A model generated the notes under the pieces. That model saw only the letters and a program-made list of their open reading frames with translations. It made no database searches and was not told the DNA's origin. Position numbers and translations under genes: made by a program. A stretch of 64,000 bases of DNA from Planctomycetaceae bacterium (GTDB lineage: Bacteria; Planctomycetota; Planctomycetia; Planctomycetales; Planctomycetaceae), in the NCBI GenBank assembly GCA_021732785.1, contig JAKFUG010000022.1, positions 62,001 through 126,000 of the forward strand, in the 5' to 3' direction. Numbering within the stretch: the first letter of the stretch is position 1; every line of letters begins with the position of its first letter. Shown in pieces: positions 8,843 to 64,000 of this stretch.

Positions 8843-8872
8843 GTTGATGGAATCGTCTCTTCGGGATTTCTG

Positions 8873-8976
8873 TAGCCCTGTCGCTCCGCGACAGGATCAG
8901 CCGTTGGATCGTAACGTGTTCTCAAATCAGTCGCGGTGCCCCCGATCGGCTTTCCTGTCGCGGAGCGACAGGGCTA
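8873..8976. repeat. 23-bp inverted repeat, 'GCTCCGC-loop' family, copy 1; supplies the AstE-like stop codon
   Basis: Arms at 8873-8895 and 8954-8976 are exact reverse complements. Each arm is itself a small hairpin, CTGTC-GCTCCGC-GACAG, preceded by TAGCC. The CTA at 8974-8976 is the TAG stop of the AstE-like gene on the minus strand. The polA/xseB repeat (61705-61830) has the same TAGCC lead and GCTCCGC loop but a different stem. Confidence 0.9.
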
Positions 8977-10014
8977 CTTTGGGGGCCAGGGTTGTTCTTC
9001 ACCGACGCACGCAATGAACTGCCCCTGCCGCACACGAGCCCCCCAGGCGCTGCCGACAATGATGCCGTCGAGTGGTGCGGTTACCAGCCACGCGGTTTCG
9101 TCGATGCGTTGGAAGTCGTGCAGCCGACCGACGACAGTTCCTTTTTTCACGCGGGTGCCACAACGGACGACTTCTTCGTAGTGACCATCAAACGGGGCGG
9201 GGACATAACATTCGAAATCGACAATCGCCGCACATTTCTGCGTGCCGTCGGCGTGATGACCGATCGGTTGAATCTCGCCACGGAGTTGCCCCTGACGAAT
9301 CGCCGCCGCGAGCACCCCTTGCTTGCCGTACCGGACACCGGCTTCGAGAACGGCTTCGCCCCAGCCGAGTTCTGTCCCCACAGTGATTTTGCCGAGTCGT
9401 TCCGCTTCGCTGGTGAGCAAGCCCGGAGTGCGGTTCTGGTAGATCATGATGAGCGGGCAACCGAACCACCGCGCGGTTTCCGCAATCGCCGCGGCCTGAG
9501 TGGGATCATCAATCGGATGGAAACTCGAACAGAGATCAAAGCGGATTTGATTCCCACCCGAGTGCAGATCGAGCACGACATGTACGTGCGGCCAAATCGA
9601 TGTGCGAATAAACGCCGCGAGCCGATGTGTGATGCCGGTCAATCCCGGCCGCGATCCGGCCCCGTCGATGAAGGCCCGGTTGAGATTCACATCATCAGCC
9701 CCGACGCTATCGCGCGTCCCGGTGCGGAAGGCCTGCACGTTCAGCACAGGAATGAAGATCAACCGGCCGAGAACGTCACTGGCGTCGATCTCATGCAGGA
9801 TCTGCTTAATCGCGGTCGGGCCTTCGTACTCATTGCCGTGGGTGGACCCGATCGCAACGAGTCCTTTTCCCGGTTGTGCGTGTGGACCAACAATCACCGT
9901 CACCGGGACGAGTTGCGTGCCCCACATCGTGTCATGTTCGAGGGCCACCCAGTAATCGCGCCGACCGGGGGTGTCGAAATCGATATTGTGCGGTTGCGTG
10001 ACGAGACGTGGCAT
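8974..10014 (-). CDS. Succinylglutamate desuccinylase/aspartoacylase (AstE/AspA) family metallohydrolase
   Basis: A zinc carboxypeptidase-like (M14-related) deacylase of 346 residues. The zinc motif is in GSTHGNEYEG (His and Glu about 56-61). VNLNRAF provides the substrate-binding Asn-Arg, DLHSGGN the third zinc ligand, and TELGWGEAV the catalytic Glu. After about residue 260 a beta-sheet domain follows (DFECYVPAPFDGHYEEVVRCGTRVKKG...), as in family members that remove N-acyl groups from amino acids or related molecules. The substrate is unknown. The last codon AAG and the stop TAG are part of a palindromic repeat. It belongs to the catabolic-looking cluster from 6576 to 11215. Confidence 0.85.
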   Translation of the reverse strand: MPRLVTQPHNIDFDTPGRRDYWVALEHDTMWGTQLVPVTVIVGPHAQPGKGLVAIGSTHGNEYEGPTAIKQILHEIDASDVLGRLIFIPVLNVQAFRTGTRDSVGADDVNLNRAFIDGAGSRPGLTGITHRLAAFIRTSIWPHVHVVLDLHSGGNQIRFDLCSSFHPIDDPTQAAAIAETARWFGCPLIMIYQNRTPGLLTSEAERLGKITVGTELGWGEAVLEAGVRYGKQGVLAAAIRQGQLRGEIQPIGHHADGTQKCAAIVDFECYVPAPFDGHYEEVVRCGTRVKKGTVVGRLHDFQRIDETAWLVTAPLDGIIVGSAWGARVRQGQFIACVGEEQPWPPK

Positions 10015-58858: not shown

Positions 58859-61711
58859 ATGACCGATACTGTCTGCGTAATCGATACTTTCTCGCTGATC
58901 TTCCAGGTGTTCCACGCCATCCCGCCGATGACGTCGCCCTCGGGGCAACCGACGAACGCGCTGTTCGGGATCAGTCGCGATCTGGTGACGCTGTTCAAAG
59001 ACCCGAAACTCACGTGGTTGATTTGCGCGTGGGATGCCCCCGGTCCCAGCGAGCGGGTCGCGCTCTACCCGGAATACAAAGCGAACCGCAGCGAAACGCC
59101 GGTGGACCTCGTCCCGCAGATCGGTCGCATTCGCGAAGTCATCGAAGCGTTCGGGATCCCGGTCATTGAACAAGTCGGTTGGGAAGCGGATGACGTGATC
59201 GCGACGCTGACCCGGCACGCCGTCGAGCGTGGAACGAATGTTCGCATAGTGACCTCGGACAAAGACGCCCGGCAATTGCTTGGCCCGCAGGTCCATCTTT
59301 TCAATCTGCGAAAGAACACGGAGCTTGGTGAAGCCGAACTGATGGCCGATTGGGGCATCCGGCCCGATCAGGTGGTCGATTTTCAATCGCTGGTCGGCGA
59401 CGCCGTCGACAACGTGCCGGGGGTGCCGCTCGTCGGTCCGAAGAAAGCGGCGCAGTTGCTGAATCAGTTCGGCACATTGGAAGAGGTGCTCGCCCGCGCT
59501 GCGGAAGCCCCGGGGGCAAAGCTCAAAGAGAATCTGCAGACGTATGCCGAACAGGCGCGGATGTCGCGCGAACTCGTGCGGTTACGGACCGATTTGCCGC
59601 TCGATTTTCCGTGGGAACACGAACGCAAGCGGCATGTGAACGTGATCCGTTTGCACGAGATGTTCCGCGAGTTCGGTTTCCGGAAGCTGATTGAAGACGT
59701 GCGATCCTTGGGCGGCACCGAATCCGTGACGGTTCCGGTTGCAAGGAAAACAACCCCCGCGAAGTCCCGTACGAAATCCTTGTTCGATGATGATGAGGAA
59801 CCAACCCTCACACCGGGTGGCGAGACTTCGACTGACAACACGCCCTCCAACGAAGACGGCTCCGCGGCAACGTCGCCTTCCAAGTCGACGCACACGTGGG
59901 ACATCATCGACACGCCGGAAAAATTCGCCGCGTTCGTCCAACAACTGCGCACCCAATCGCGGATTTGTCTCGACTTGGAAACGACCAGTGTCGATCCGCG
60001 CCGGGCCAAAATCGTGGGCTGGGCATTCTGCTGGCAACCGGGACATGGTTATTACATCGCGGTGATGGGACCGCCGGGAAGCACGCTGCTCGATCCGCTA
60101 CTCGTCGTTGACAGATTGCGGCCGATTCTCGAAGCACCGGAGTTGGAACTCGTCAATCAGAACGTGAAATACGACCTGATCGTCCTCCGCACCGTCGGCA
60201 TTCACCCACAGAAACTCGGCGTGGACCCGATGGTAGGGGATTACCTGCTCGATGCCGGGGCGCGGTCGCACAGCCTGGAAACATTACTCGAAAAATATCT
60301 GCACCGGACGGGAATTTCGATCAGTGAATTGATTGGTACCGGCAAAAAGCAGAAATCGATGGCGGACATCGAAGTCCCGCGTGTCGCTGAGTATGCCTCC
60401 GAAGACGCCGATTGTGCGTTACAGATTGCCGACCGCATCGCCGCCGAACTGCGCGAACAGAATCTGTGGGATCTCTACTGGGATCTGGAACGGCCGCTGA
60501 TTCCTGTCCTGGTGGAACTCGAATACAACGGCATTCGGGTCGATGCGGATGAACTCGCCCAGCAGAGCGTCGCGCTCACGGCGGAACTCGAACGACTCGT
60601 GATCGAAATCCACGAAATCGCCGGGCATTCATTCAATATCGATTCGCCGATTCAATTGCGTACGGTCCTTTTCGACGAATTGAAACTCCCGCCGAAGAAG
60701 CGGACGAAAACCGGGCCGAGCACCGATCAGGACGTGCTGGAAGAACTCGCGGCGCTCCATCCGCTGCCGGCGAAAATCATCGAACATCGCCAGGCCAGCA
60801 AGCTGAAAGGGACGTACGTCGACGCGCTGCCGTTGCAGATCAACCCCGAGACCGGCCGCATTCATTGCTCGTTCAATCAAGTCGTGGCGGCAACCGGGCG
60901 GTTGAGTTCGAATGACCCGAACCTGCAGAACATCCCCATCCGCACACCGGCCGGGCAACGAGTCCGCAAGGCGTTCATTCCGGGCGAACTCGAATGGAAA
61001 CTCGTCTGTGCGGACTACTCGCAGATCGAGCTGCGAATGCTCGCCCATTTCAGCCAGGACAACGTGTTGCTCGATGCCTTCGCGCAGGGGATCGACATTC
61101 ACACCGCCGTCGCCGCGAGTGTCTACAGCGTCGAGCGCGAACACGTCACGTCCGACATGCGGCGGGTCGCCAAAGCGGTGAACTTCGGCGTGATCTACGG
61201 TCAAAGCCCGTACGGTCTCGCCGCCGCGCTCGGCATTCCGCAGGACGACGCGGCGAAGTTCATTGACGATTACTTTTCCCGCTACGCCGGGGTGACGCAG
61301 TTCCTCGAAGAGACGCTCGATGAATGTCTGCGGACCGGTTATGCCACCACGATTCTCGGTCGCCGCCGCAAGATTGACGGCATCCGCCCCGATCACAACC
61401 GGAACCGTAATCTCGCCGAGCGGACCGCGATCAATACGGTCATTCAGGGTTCCGCCGCGGATCTCATCAAGCAGGCGATGATCAACGTCTTCAATCGCAT
61501 GAAAACGGAACAACACCCCGGCCGGATGCTGTTGCAGATTCACGACGAACTGGTGTTCGAAGCCCCGGATGACGCGGTACCTTCGTTGGTGCGTCTCGTG
61601 CGGGAGGAAATGGAGCACGCGATGAATCTCGACGTGCCGTTAGCGGTGGATGTTTCCGTCGGCGACAACTGGCTGGAGACGGTGGAGTACGCAGACGGAA
61701 CCTCAAAGTAG
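58859..61711 (+). CDS. polA: DNA polymerase I
   Basis: The protein has 950 residues. The 5'-3' exonuclease domain (about 1-290) has VCVIDTFSLIFQVFHAIPPM, LYPEYKANR, QVGWEADDVIATLTR, IVTSDKDARQLL and VDFQSLVGDAVDNVPGVPLVGPKKAAQLL. A disordered linker (about 295-355, Asp/Ser/Thr-rich) follows. The 3'-5' exonuclease has CLDLETTSVDPR, NQNVKYDLIVLR and EYASEDADCALQ, so proofreading residues are intact. The polymerase motifs are A in CADYSQIELRMLAHFS, B in RRVAKAVNFGVIYGQSPYGLA and C in LQIHDELVFE. The ATG at 58859 is chosen over one at 58823. The last sense codon and TAG lie in a palindrome shared with xseB. Confidence 0.96.
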   Translation: MTDTVCVIDTFSLIFQVFHAIPPMTSPSGQPTNALFGISRDLVTLFKDPKLTWLICAWDAPGPSERVALYPEYKANRSETPVDLVPQIGRIREVIEAFGIPVIEQVGWEADDVIATLTRHAVERGTNVRIVTSDKDARQLLGPQVHLFNLRKNTELGEAELMADWGIRPDQVVDFQSLVGDAVDNVPGVPLVGPKKAAQLLNQFGTLEEVLARAAEAPGAKLKENLQTYAEQARMSRELVRLRTDLPLDFPWEHERKRHVNVIRLHEMFREFGFRKLIEDVRSLGGTESVTVPVARKTTPAKSRTKSLFDDDEEPTLTPGGETSTDNTPSNEDGSAATSPSKSTHTWDIIDTPEKFAAFVQQLRTQSRICLDLETTSVDPRRAKIVGWAFCWQPGHGYYIAVMGPPGSTLLDPLLVVDRLRPILEAPELELVNQNVKYDLIVLRTVGIHPQKLGVDPMVGDYLLDAGARSHSLETLLEKYLHRTGISISELIGTGKKQKSMADIEVPRVAEYASEDADCALQIADRIAAELREQNLWDLYWDLERPLIPVLVELEYNGIRVDADELAQQSVALTAELERLVIEIHEIAGHSFNIDSPIQLRTVLFDELKLPPKKRTKTGPSTDQDVLEELAALHPLPAKIIEHRQASKLKGTYVDALPLQINPETGRIHCSFNQVVAATGRLSSNDPNLQNIPIRTPAGQRVRKAFIPGELEWKLVCADYSQIELRMLAHFSQDNVLLDAFAQGIDIHTAVAASVYSVEREHVTSDMRRVAKAVNFGVIYGQSPYGLAAALGIPQDDAAKFIDDYFSRYAGVTQFLEETLDECLRTGYATTILGRRRKIDGIRPDHNRNRNLAERTAINTVIQGSAADLIKQAMINVFNRMKTEQHPGRMLLQIHDELVFEAPDDAVPSLVRLVREEMEHAMNLDVPLAVDVSVGDNWLETVEYADGTSK

Positions 61712-61830
61712 CCATCACGCTCCGCGTGATGAGCGGAGTTGTGGGCAAACCCACCGAGTTGGGATGGCTGGCTTGCAATTCGACGGTTTGTGATTCATCC
61801 GCTCATCACGCGGAGCGTGATGGCTACTTT
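61705..61830. repeat. 33-bp inverted repeat joining polA and xseB stop codons ('GCTCCGC-loop' family, copy 2)
   Basis: Arms at 61705-61737 and 61798-61830 are exact reverse complements of 33 bases, starting AAAGTAGCCATCACGC. Each arm also forms a hairpin, ATCAC-GCTCCGC-GTGAT. polA ends AAG-TAG inside the left arm. xseB ends with TAA at 61831-61829, two bases of it in the right arm, so both genes end within the repeat. The spacer is 60 bases. Confidence 0.97.
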
Positions 61831-62161
61831 ATTCCTCGTCGAACCCCAGATTCGGCGGTGCAGCGCGCCGTGGAGCCGCCCGGCGTTTGCCGGCGGGCGT
61901 TGTCGGTTGAGCGGTCGCGGCGGCATCGAACGGGGTCGTCCGCGGGTTGCCGTTTTCGTCGAACCCGACGAGTTGCTCAATCTGCAATTCCGCGGCGTCG
62001 AGCAACTGGTAACACGTCTGCAACAATTCCACCCCGCGGCCGAAGTCTTTCAGACCCTGTTCGAGGCCATTGCCGCCGTCTTCGAGCCGTGCCGCGATCT
62101 TCTGCAACTCGGCGAGCGCCGCTTCAAACGATAACGGGGCGGATTCGGCGTCAGCAGTCAT
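61829..62161 (-). CDS. xseB: Exodeoxyribonuclease VII small subunit
   Basis: The protein has 110 residues. LSFEAALAELQKIAARLEDGGNGLEQGLKDFGRGVELLQTCYQLLDAAELQIEQLV is the XseB helical hairpin (usual form: F...L..LE.IV..LE.G...LE..L..FE.G..L...C...L..AE..V). The extra C-terminal 40 residues (ATAQPTTPAGKRRAAPRRAAPP...) are basic and low-complexity. It partners the large subunit XseA, which is not in this window. It is convergent with polA across a palindrome. Confidence 0.9.
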   Translation of the reverse strand: MTADAESAPLSFEAALAELQKIAARLEDGGNGLEQGLKDFGRGVELLQTCYQLLDAAELQIEQLVGFDENGNPRTTPFDAAATAQPTTPAGKRRAAPRRAAPPNLGFDEE

Positions 62162-63596: not shown

Positions 63597-63630
63597 GAAG
63601 CAATCAATCTCTGGCGGTGCGAGGAACGTC

Positions 63631-63722
63631 GCATCCCGGCTGCTTCCTGGCAGCCGGGATGCTGGATTTCAAGGGACGACTCACCATCGAGCACCCCGGC
63701 TGCGAAGAAGCAGCCGGGGTGC
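63631..63722. repeat. Paired hairpins of the 'CCCGGCTGC' family, unit 1
   Basis: Hairpin A: GCATCCCGGCTGC (63631-63643) with GCAGCCGGGATGC (63650-63662). Hairpin B: GCACCCCGGCTGC (63691-63703) with GCAGCCGGGGTGC (63710-63722). A and B differ by one compensatory pair (T-A against C-G) in the stem, and their loops are TTCCTG and GAAGAA. B is roughly the reverse complement of A, so the two hairpins could also pair with each other. Confidence 0.92.
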
Positions 63723-63891
63723 GGCGTGTGGCGTGCGACCGAACGGGCGAGTATACCGCGGCGGGCGAACCATCTGTAGCGATTGCGCGTCCGTGGGACG
63801 AGATCGCTGCGATCGCATCGGGACCGGACGATGTTAACCCCGTTGCGAGCCACAACTTTCGGCGGGTATGATGGTGAGACAGGTTGCGACC

Positions 63892-63983
63892 GCATCCCGG
63901 CTGCTTCCTCGCAGCCGGGATGCTTTCCTACTTCCATACGTGTTGACAAAAGCACCCCGGCTGTGAAGAAACAGCCGGGGTGC
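63892..63983. repeat. Paired hairpins of the 'CCCGGCTGC' family, unit 2
   Basis: Hairpin A: GCATCCCGGCTGC at 63892 with GCAGCCGGGATGC ending at 63923. Hairpin B: GCACCCCGGCTGT at 63952 with ACAGCCGGGGTGC ending at 63983. The last pair of stem B has changed C-G to T-A, another compensatory change. Spacing and order repeat unit 1. Confidence 0.92.
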
Positions 63984-64000
63984 GACTCTCTTAAGGACTT

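Follow-up and report, generated by a model that had tools for sequence, protein, structure and literature searches.

A mobile REPIN as the probable source of the polA stop codon at a convergent polA-xseB junction in a Planctomycetaceae bacterium

The convergent genes polA and xseB of this Planctomycetaceae bacterium are separated by an inverted repeat that is very probably a non-autonomous mobile element of the REP/REPIN type. Its present position is best explained by landing at a gene 3' end and a subsequent filter on reading frame, with polA capturing a TAG of the element as its stop codon. The evidence comes from the window (the whole 64,000-nucleotide stretch that was analysed), from the other copies of the repeat in the genome and from the equivalent sites in a sister species.

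The inverted repeat at the polA-xseB junction

The two arms of the repeat (61705-61737 and 61798-61830) are 33 nt each, 100% complementary and separated by a gap of 60 nt, in agreement with the original prediction of perfect 33-bp arms in this spacer. Both ends carry GTAG followed by an 8-bp stem with a TCC loop, the tag and palindrome that typify a REP. The repeat is thus a REPIN consisting of two inverted REPs with their tags facing outward, and the pair at 61708-61827 is one of 57 such pairs described below. A search of the window against Rfam gave zero matches.

The polA product, which matches Pfam DNA_pol_A (1.3e-154) and also contains exonuclease domains, is encoded by a gene whose 3' end reads TCA AAG TAG inside the left arm, as had been predicted. 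On the opposite strand xseB ends GAA TAA; the T of this stop codon (61831-61829) lies one base beyond the right arm, while both A's are the outermost bases of the arm. It had been proposed that the repeat provides the stop codons of both genes, a view that is upheld for polA but not for xseB. In the sister genome G002, which is from the same genus and displays 83% DNA identity at polA, the two genes are convergent with stops ∼20 bp apart and no repeat between them, a junction identical to that of MAG D4_Bin_7 (L040). In G002 polA terminates at TGA, as does xseB, the latter at the codon that matches the xseB stop in this genome (FDEE*). As the xseB stop codon occupies the same position in the repeat-less sister, the repeat at most rebuilt this stop as TAA. 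From these alignments the position of the xseB stop is judged to be ancestral and the TAG of polA to derive from the repeat; the REPIN would have inserted at the native xseB stop or immediately downstream of it. The insertion point with respect to polA is not recoverable by joining the flanks because the sister is too diverged in this region and the joined flanks read on, staying open for ∼100 codons.

The AstE/AspA-like gene elsewhere in the window also ends AAG TAG in a related repeat, consistent with the original prediction; the REP in question belongs to a second subfamily (C).

Table 1. Coordinates of the genes and repeat features (window positions unless another locus is named)
Feature	Position	Strand	Details
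polA, DNA polymerase I	58859..61711	+	950 aa by codon model; longest ORF from 58823
polA stop codon	61709..61711	+	TAG of the left tag
xseB, exonuclease VII small subunit	61829..62161	-	Pfam Exonuc_VII_S 4.8e-15
Whole REPIN with AAA/TTT flanks	61705..61830	.	33-bp perfect arms, 60-nt middle; RNA fold -87.9 kcal/mol, z -12.8
Left REP	61708..61736	+	GTAG tag + hairpin CATCACGC-TCC-GCGTGATG + AGCGG; DNA hairpin -9.7 kcal/mol
Right REP	61799..61827	-	Inverted copy of left REP
AstE/AspA-like gene	8974..10014	-	Pfam AstE_AspA_cat 2.4e-8; ends AAG TAG at 8976-8974 in REPIN 8872-8977
Second REPIN of the window	8872..8977	.	Subfamily C, 106 bp
RAYT-like gene	L103:8022-8702 (contig C37)	-	Between two subfamily C REPINs; Pfam Y1_Tnp above cut-off

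A second palindrome family, CACCCCGGCTGC-loop-GCAGCCGGGGTG, is found at positions 63628-63990 of the window together with CATCCCGGCTGC variants; these occur as inverted pairs and lack a GTAG tag. Allowing ≤1 mismatch, CATCCCGGCTGC has 77 matches in the 1.88 Mb surveyed.

The repeat family and a candidate transposase

The 6.69 Mb genome contains 122 matches to the motif GTAGCCN{0,12}GCTCCGC, compared with 12 for a reversed control, demonstrating that the repeat copies are not due to chance. About sixty REPINs are present; the 57 inverted pairs with outward tags range from 86 to 234 bp, and 52 of these are intergenic, four intragenic and one at an edge, the abundance and mostly intergenic location expected of REPs. 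Subfamily A, the type at polA, has the stem CATCACGC-TCC-GCGTGATG, and subfamily C, present at the AstE-like gene, has CCTGTCGC-TCC-GCGACAGG. An AAA flanks 20 of 23 GTAG or GTCG ends in subfamily A but only 38 of 108 ends in subfamily C, and the sister alignments conflict (the AAA is extra at L082 but host-like at xseB), so that it may belong either to the element or to the target. Target-site duplications, the hallmark of DNA-transposon MITEs, were sought at the 57 REPINs and no excess of direct duplications was observed.

At 26 of 135 outward ends (for example L083, L084 and L127) the tag is GTCG instead of GTAG. GTCG is often found on both ends of a REPIN and is not covered by the published GT(A/G)G definition; rather than a product of random decay, it seems to be a second recognised tag. 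Subfamily A REPs also occur with tags inward, GTGG facing GTAG or GTCG 4 bp apart, in a conserved ∼140 bp element whose arms end near GGAATGCGTAT and GGATCGGTAT. Such pairs are present at L049, L054, L058, L062, L070, L073, L093 and other loci, one copy lying within a REPIN at L054 (C2:249367-249595). As they are never suppliers of stops, the tag-inward pairs (GTGG/GTAG) were counted separately. REPINs are also located inside called genes at L061 (10049), L063 (10041), L076 (14338), L082 (6072) and L115 (217), where they are read on the same strand in one frame only, mostly as SPVAPRQES...AFLSxSDRAT, forming in-frame inserts of ∼30 residues.

The genome contains nine Y1_Tnp matches. The RAYT-like gene at L103 encodes a protein with an HUH-like motif, NHVHLL, that scores 1.5e-13 and 50.9 bits against NCBIfam REP_Tyr_transpos, below the 80-bit cut-off for that model. 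The gene is flanked by REPINs of the family, as RAYT genes are, and ends SPK-TAG, the TAG being the REP's own. We infer that this putative RAYT, an IS200/IS605-like HUH tyrosine transposase, moves the REPIN family and has probably been responsible for its spread, with the outer GTAG acting as the recognition or guide tetranucleotide of the enzyme.

Genomes of the same genus contain almost no REP copies, indicating that the expansion in this genome is recent. GTAGCC-type REPs have also multiplied, separately, in other genera of the family; large expansions with up to 277 matches are present in G065, G132, G117 and G055, with stem variants such as GTCATCGC.

Stop codons at REPIN ends

REPIN-containing spacers comprise 14 convergent, 36 unidirectional and 2 divergent examples, compared with 210, 910 and 211, respectively, among all neighbouring gene pairs. 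The preference for convergent over divergent spacers (p = 0.004) is consistent with the predicted tie to convergent genes. To what extent the ends serve as stops was assessed in 1.88 Mb of REP-centred stretches, which include the window and nearly all copies with their surroundings, using uncurated gene calls from a codon model written for this analysis. For 17 of 105 outward GTAG ends the TAG is the stop of a called gene, and the same is true of 6 of 37 GTAG ends in the other-genus genome G065, where no GTAG end near the 3' end of a gene is read through. The prediction that repeat ends act as native gene stops is therefore substantiated. A further 34 of the 105 ends sit 1-30 nt past a stop (most ends near genes being at 5-30 nt), a single end, close to the end of a gene, is read through to a stop 103 nt farther on, and two are deep in genes, where the frame used gives SPVAPRQES or a close variant of it. 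Of the genes running into a GTAG end on the same strand, 17 meet the TAG in frame and three read through (p = 2.8e-6 against one-third). None of the 26 GTCG ends coincides with a stop codon; at L087 the TCG of GTCG is read in frame and the gene gains six residues (SPSRSA) before a TGA. Genes read through 4 of 26 GTCG ends compared with 3 of 105 GTAG ends (Fisher p = 0.03), a comparison that is post hoc and based on small numbers.

The count of TAG stops against random placement that had been proposed was carried out, but the raw fraction proved uninformative: uniform random placement yields an in-frame TAG in 13.8% of cases through gene truncation (0.43% in the last ten codons), similar to the 16% observed. 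Placement in the last ten codons and placement near stops were thus used as additional nulls. Insertion ≤30 nt from a stop is expected to give 36% read-through, 17% TAG stops and 47% ends with the stop upstream, whereas the 52 ends observed near stops show 2% (1), 33% (17) and 65% (34), respectively. The deficit of read-through is better fitted by the loss of such insertions than by stop-codon aiming. Indeed, the data do not support the proposal that stop codons are the target of insertion, as TAG stops make up 17 of the 51 TAG stops plus downstream landings, near the 26% expected from the placement null.

The fate of the native stops is illustrated by the sister species. G002 orthologues of 11 captured genes have stops, mostly TGA, that agree with those of the captured genes within a few codons. 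In silico excision of the REPIN gives KDSP* at L117, where the sister has KDTP*, and SSE* on the minus strand at L082, where the sister has PTE*; at both, the joined flanks reach a TGA a few bases beyond. At L048 the former TGA is now TCA. The REPINs at L054 and L082 provide TAG stops to both convergent genes, and, as the sister genes at L082 overlap at their 3' ends, a single insertion there removed, and then returned, both stops. These empty sites show landing in the final codons or in the stop itself, capture of the TAG and decay of the old stop.

These data suggest the following mechanism. With GTAG at every outer end, one of the three frames in which a gene can run into the element encounters TAG. 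If insertion is into the final codons or the stop of a gene and brings the TAG into frame, the copy would be kept because the gene ends at once, and the displaced native stop would decay afterwards. In the other frames the gene would acquire a long tail, and such copies would mostly be lost. Surviving copies are mainly at gene 3' ends. Selection has presumably removed the read-through insertions. The takeover of a native stop by a mobile repeat is thereby documented through landing, in-frame TAG and old-stop decay, and stop capture accounts for gene-end differences of a few codons between close species.

Alternative explanations and comparison with known REP systems

The original prediction viewed the repeat as a selected 3'-end module, in which the host keeps REPINs because the stop and a bidirectional hairpin end or protect convergent transcripts. 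The excess in convergent spacers is compatible with such a role, as are the very stable hairpin, which in the spacer transcript begins at the polA stop codon, and the report that E. coli REPs ≤15 nt from a stop affect translation (PMC12306157). A terminator scan gave one plus-strand match with the tail CTACTTTATT, which also weakly favours such a role; it contains three T's in a row, and the flanks of the other REPINs rarely contain more than TTT; such a short U-run after the hairpin argues against a module of this kind. Copies are, moreover, nearly absent from genomes of the same genus and lacking at the sister polA/xseB junction, the 26 GTCG ends cannot provide a stop, most ends near genes lie 5-30 nt past an ordinary stop, and tolerance of 3'-end insertions accounts for the placement. 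We therefore regard selection for a 3'-end module as unlikely. A hairpin located at a stop codon is not necessarily a terminator, and the hairpins may possibly influence termination, mRNA stability or translation, including that of polA. That the polA-xseB repeat is unique and fixed and has nothing to do with mobile repeats, serving for instance as a dedicated terminator, would be in keeping with its convergent position and strong hairpin, but is refuted by the dozens of near-identical copies elsewhere and by the empty site in the sister, and can be dismissed with near certainty.

If the transposase targeted pre-existing GTAG or TAG sequences, the stops would be older than the element. Relatives of IS200/IS605 do select short target motifs through guide tetranucleotides (PMC8266576), and sister stops lie within a few codons of the captured stops, 3 of 11 being TAG. 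This proportion, however, is near the genome-wide TAG frequency of 21%, the joined flanks at L117 and L082 minus run to TGA, relative to downstream landings TAG stops are not clearly enriched, and GTCG is the tag at 26 ends, all of which make targeting of pre-existing sites highly improbable. Within the preferred explanation of a mobile REPIN subject to a frame filter, there is a slight chance that the TAG in the tag is kept partly for safety at gene ends, stop capture being a selected trait of the element. Stop-bearing ends would then let the element land in last codons with no added tail, and stop capture would be more than a by-product of transposase recognition. The GTCG ends in the same genome provide a natural comparison for this reading.

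REPs are defined as a GT(A/G)G tag followed by a palindrome (PMC3686654). The pseudomonad and stenotrophomonad REPINs and RAYTs (PMC2817692, PMC3686654) share with the system described here non-autonomous doublets, a REP-flanked gene for an HUH tyrosine transposase and, in some cases, a RAYT gene that ends directly at a REP. They differ in that the RAYT described here is divergent, scoring below the NCBIfam cut-off, and in that the published tags are GTAG or GTGG and not GTCG. In E. coli, REPs ≤15 nt from the stop codon are cited as causing ribosome stalling and reduced translation (PMC12306157). Hairpins starting ≤15 nt from a stop are common to both systems, but at 17 ends here the stop is within the REP itself. 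The closest likeness is to the GTAG REPs of Planctomycetes, including R. baltica, described by Di Nocera et al. 2013 (PMC3733652). These favour convergent and unidirectional spacers, their termini often give a TAG stop, and they have GTAG with a perfect hairpin and inverted dimers with tags outside and spacers of 20-100 bp. The likeness therefore extends to tag, hairpin, layout and placement, although the stems found here were not assigned among the 24 families of that study. As the TAG-stop effect is already described in that study, the polA case is a new instance of a known effect, and the gain lies in detail and mechanism. The sizeable GTCG class is a further difference, and what is added to the published effect is the frame bias, derived from a count of frames, the empty sites and the double capture of stops by single REPINs.
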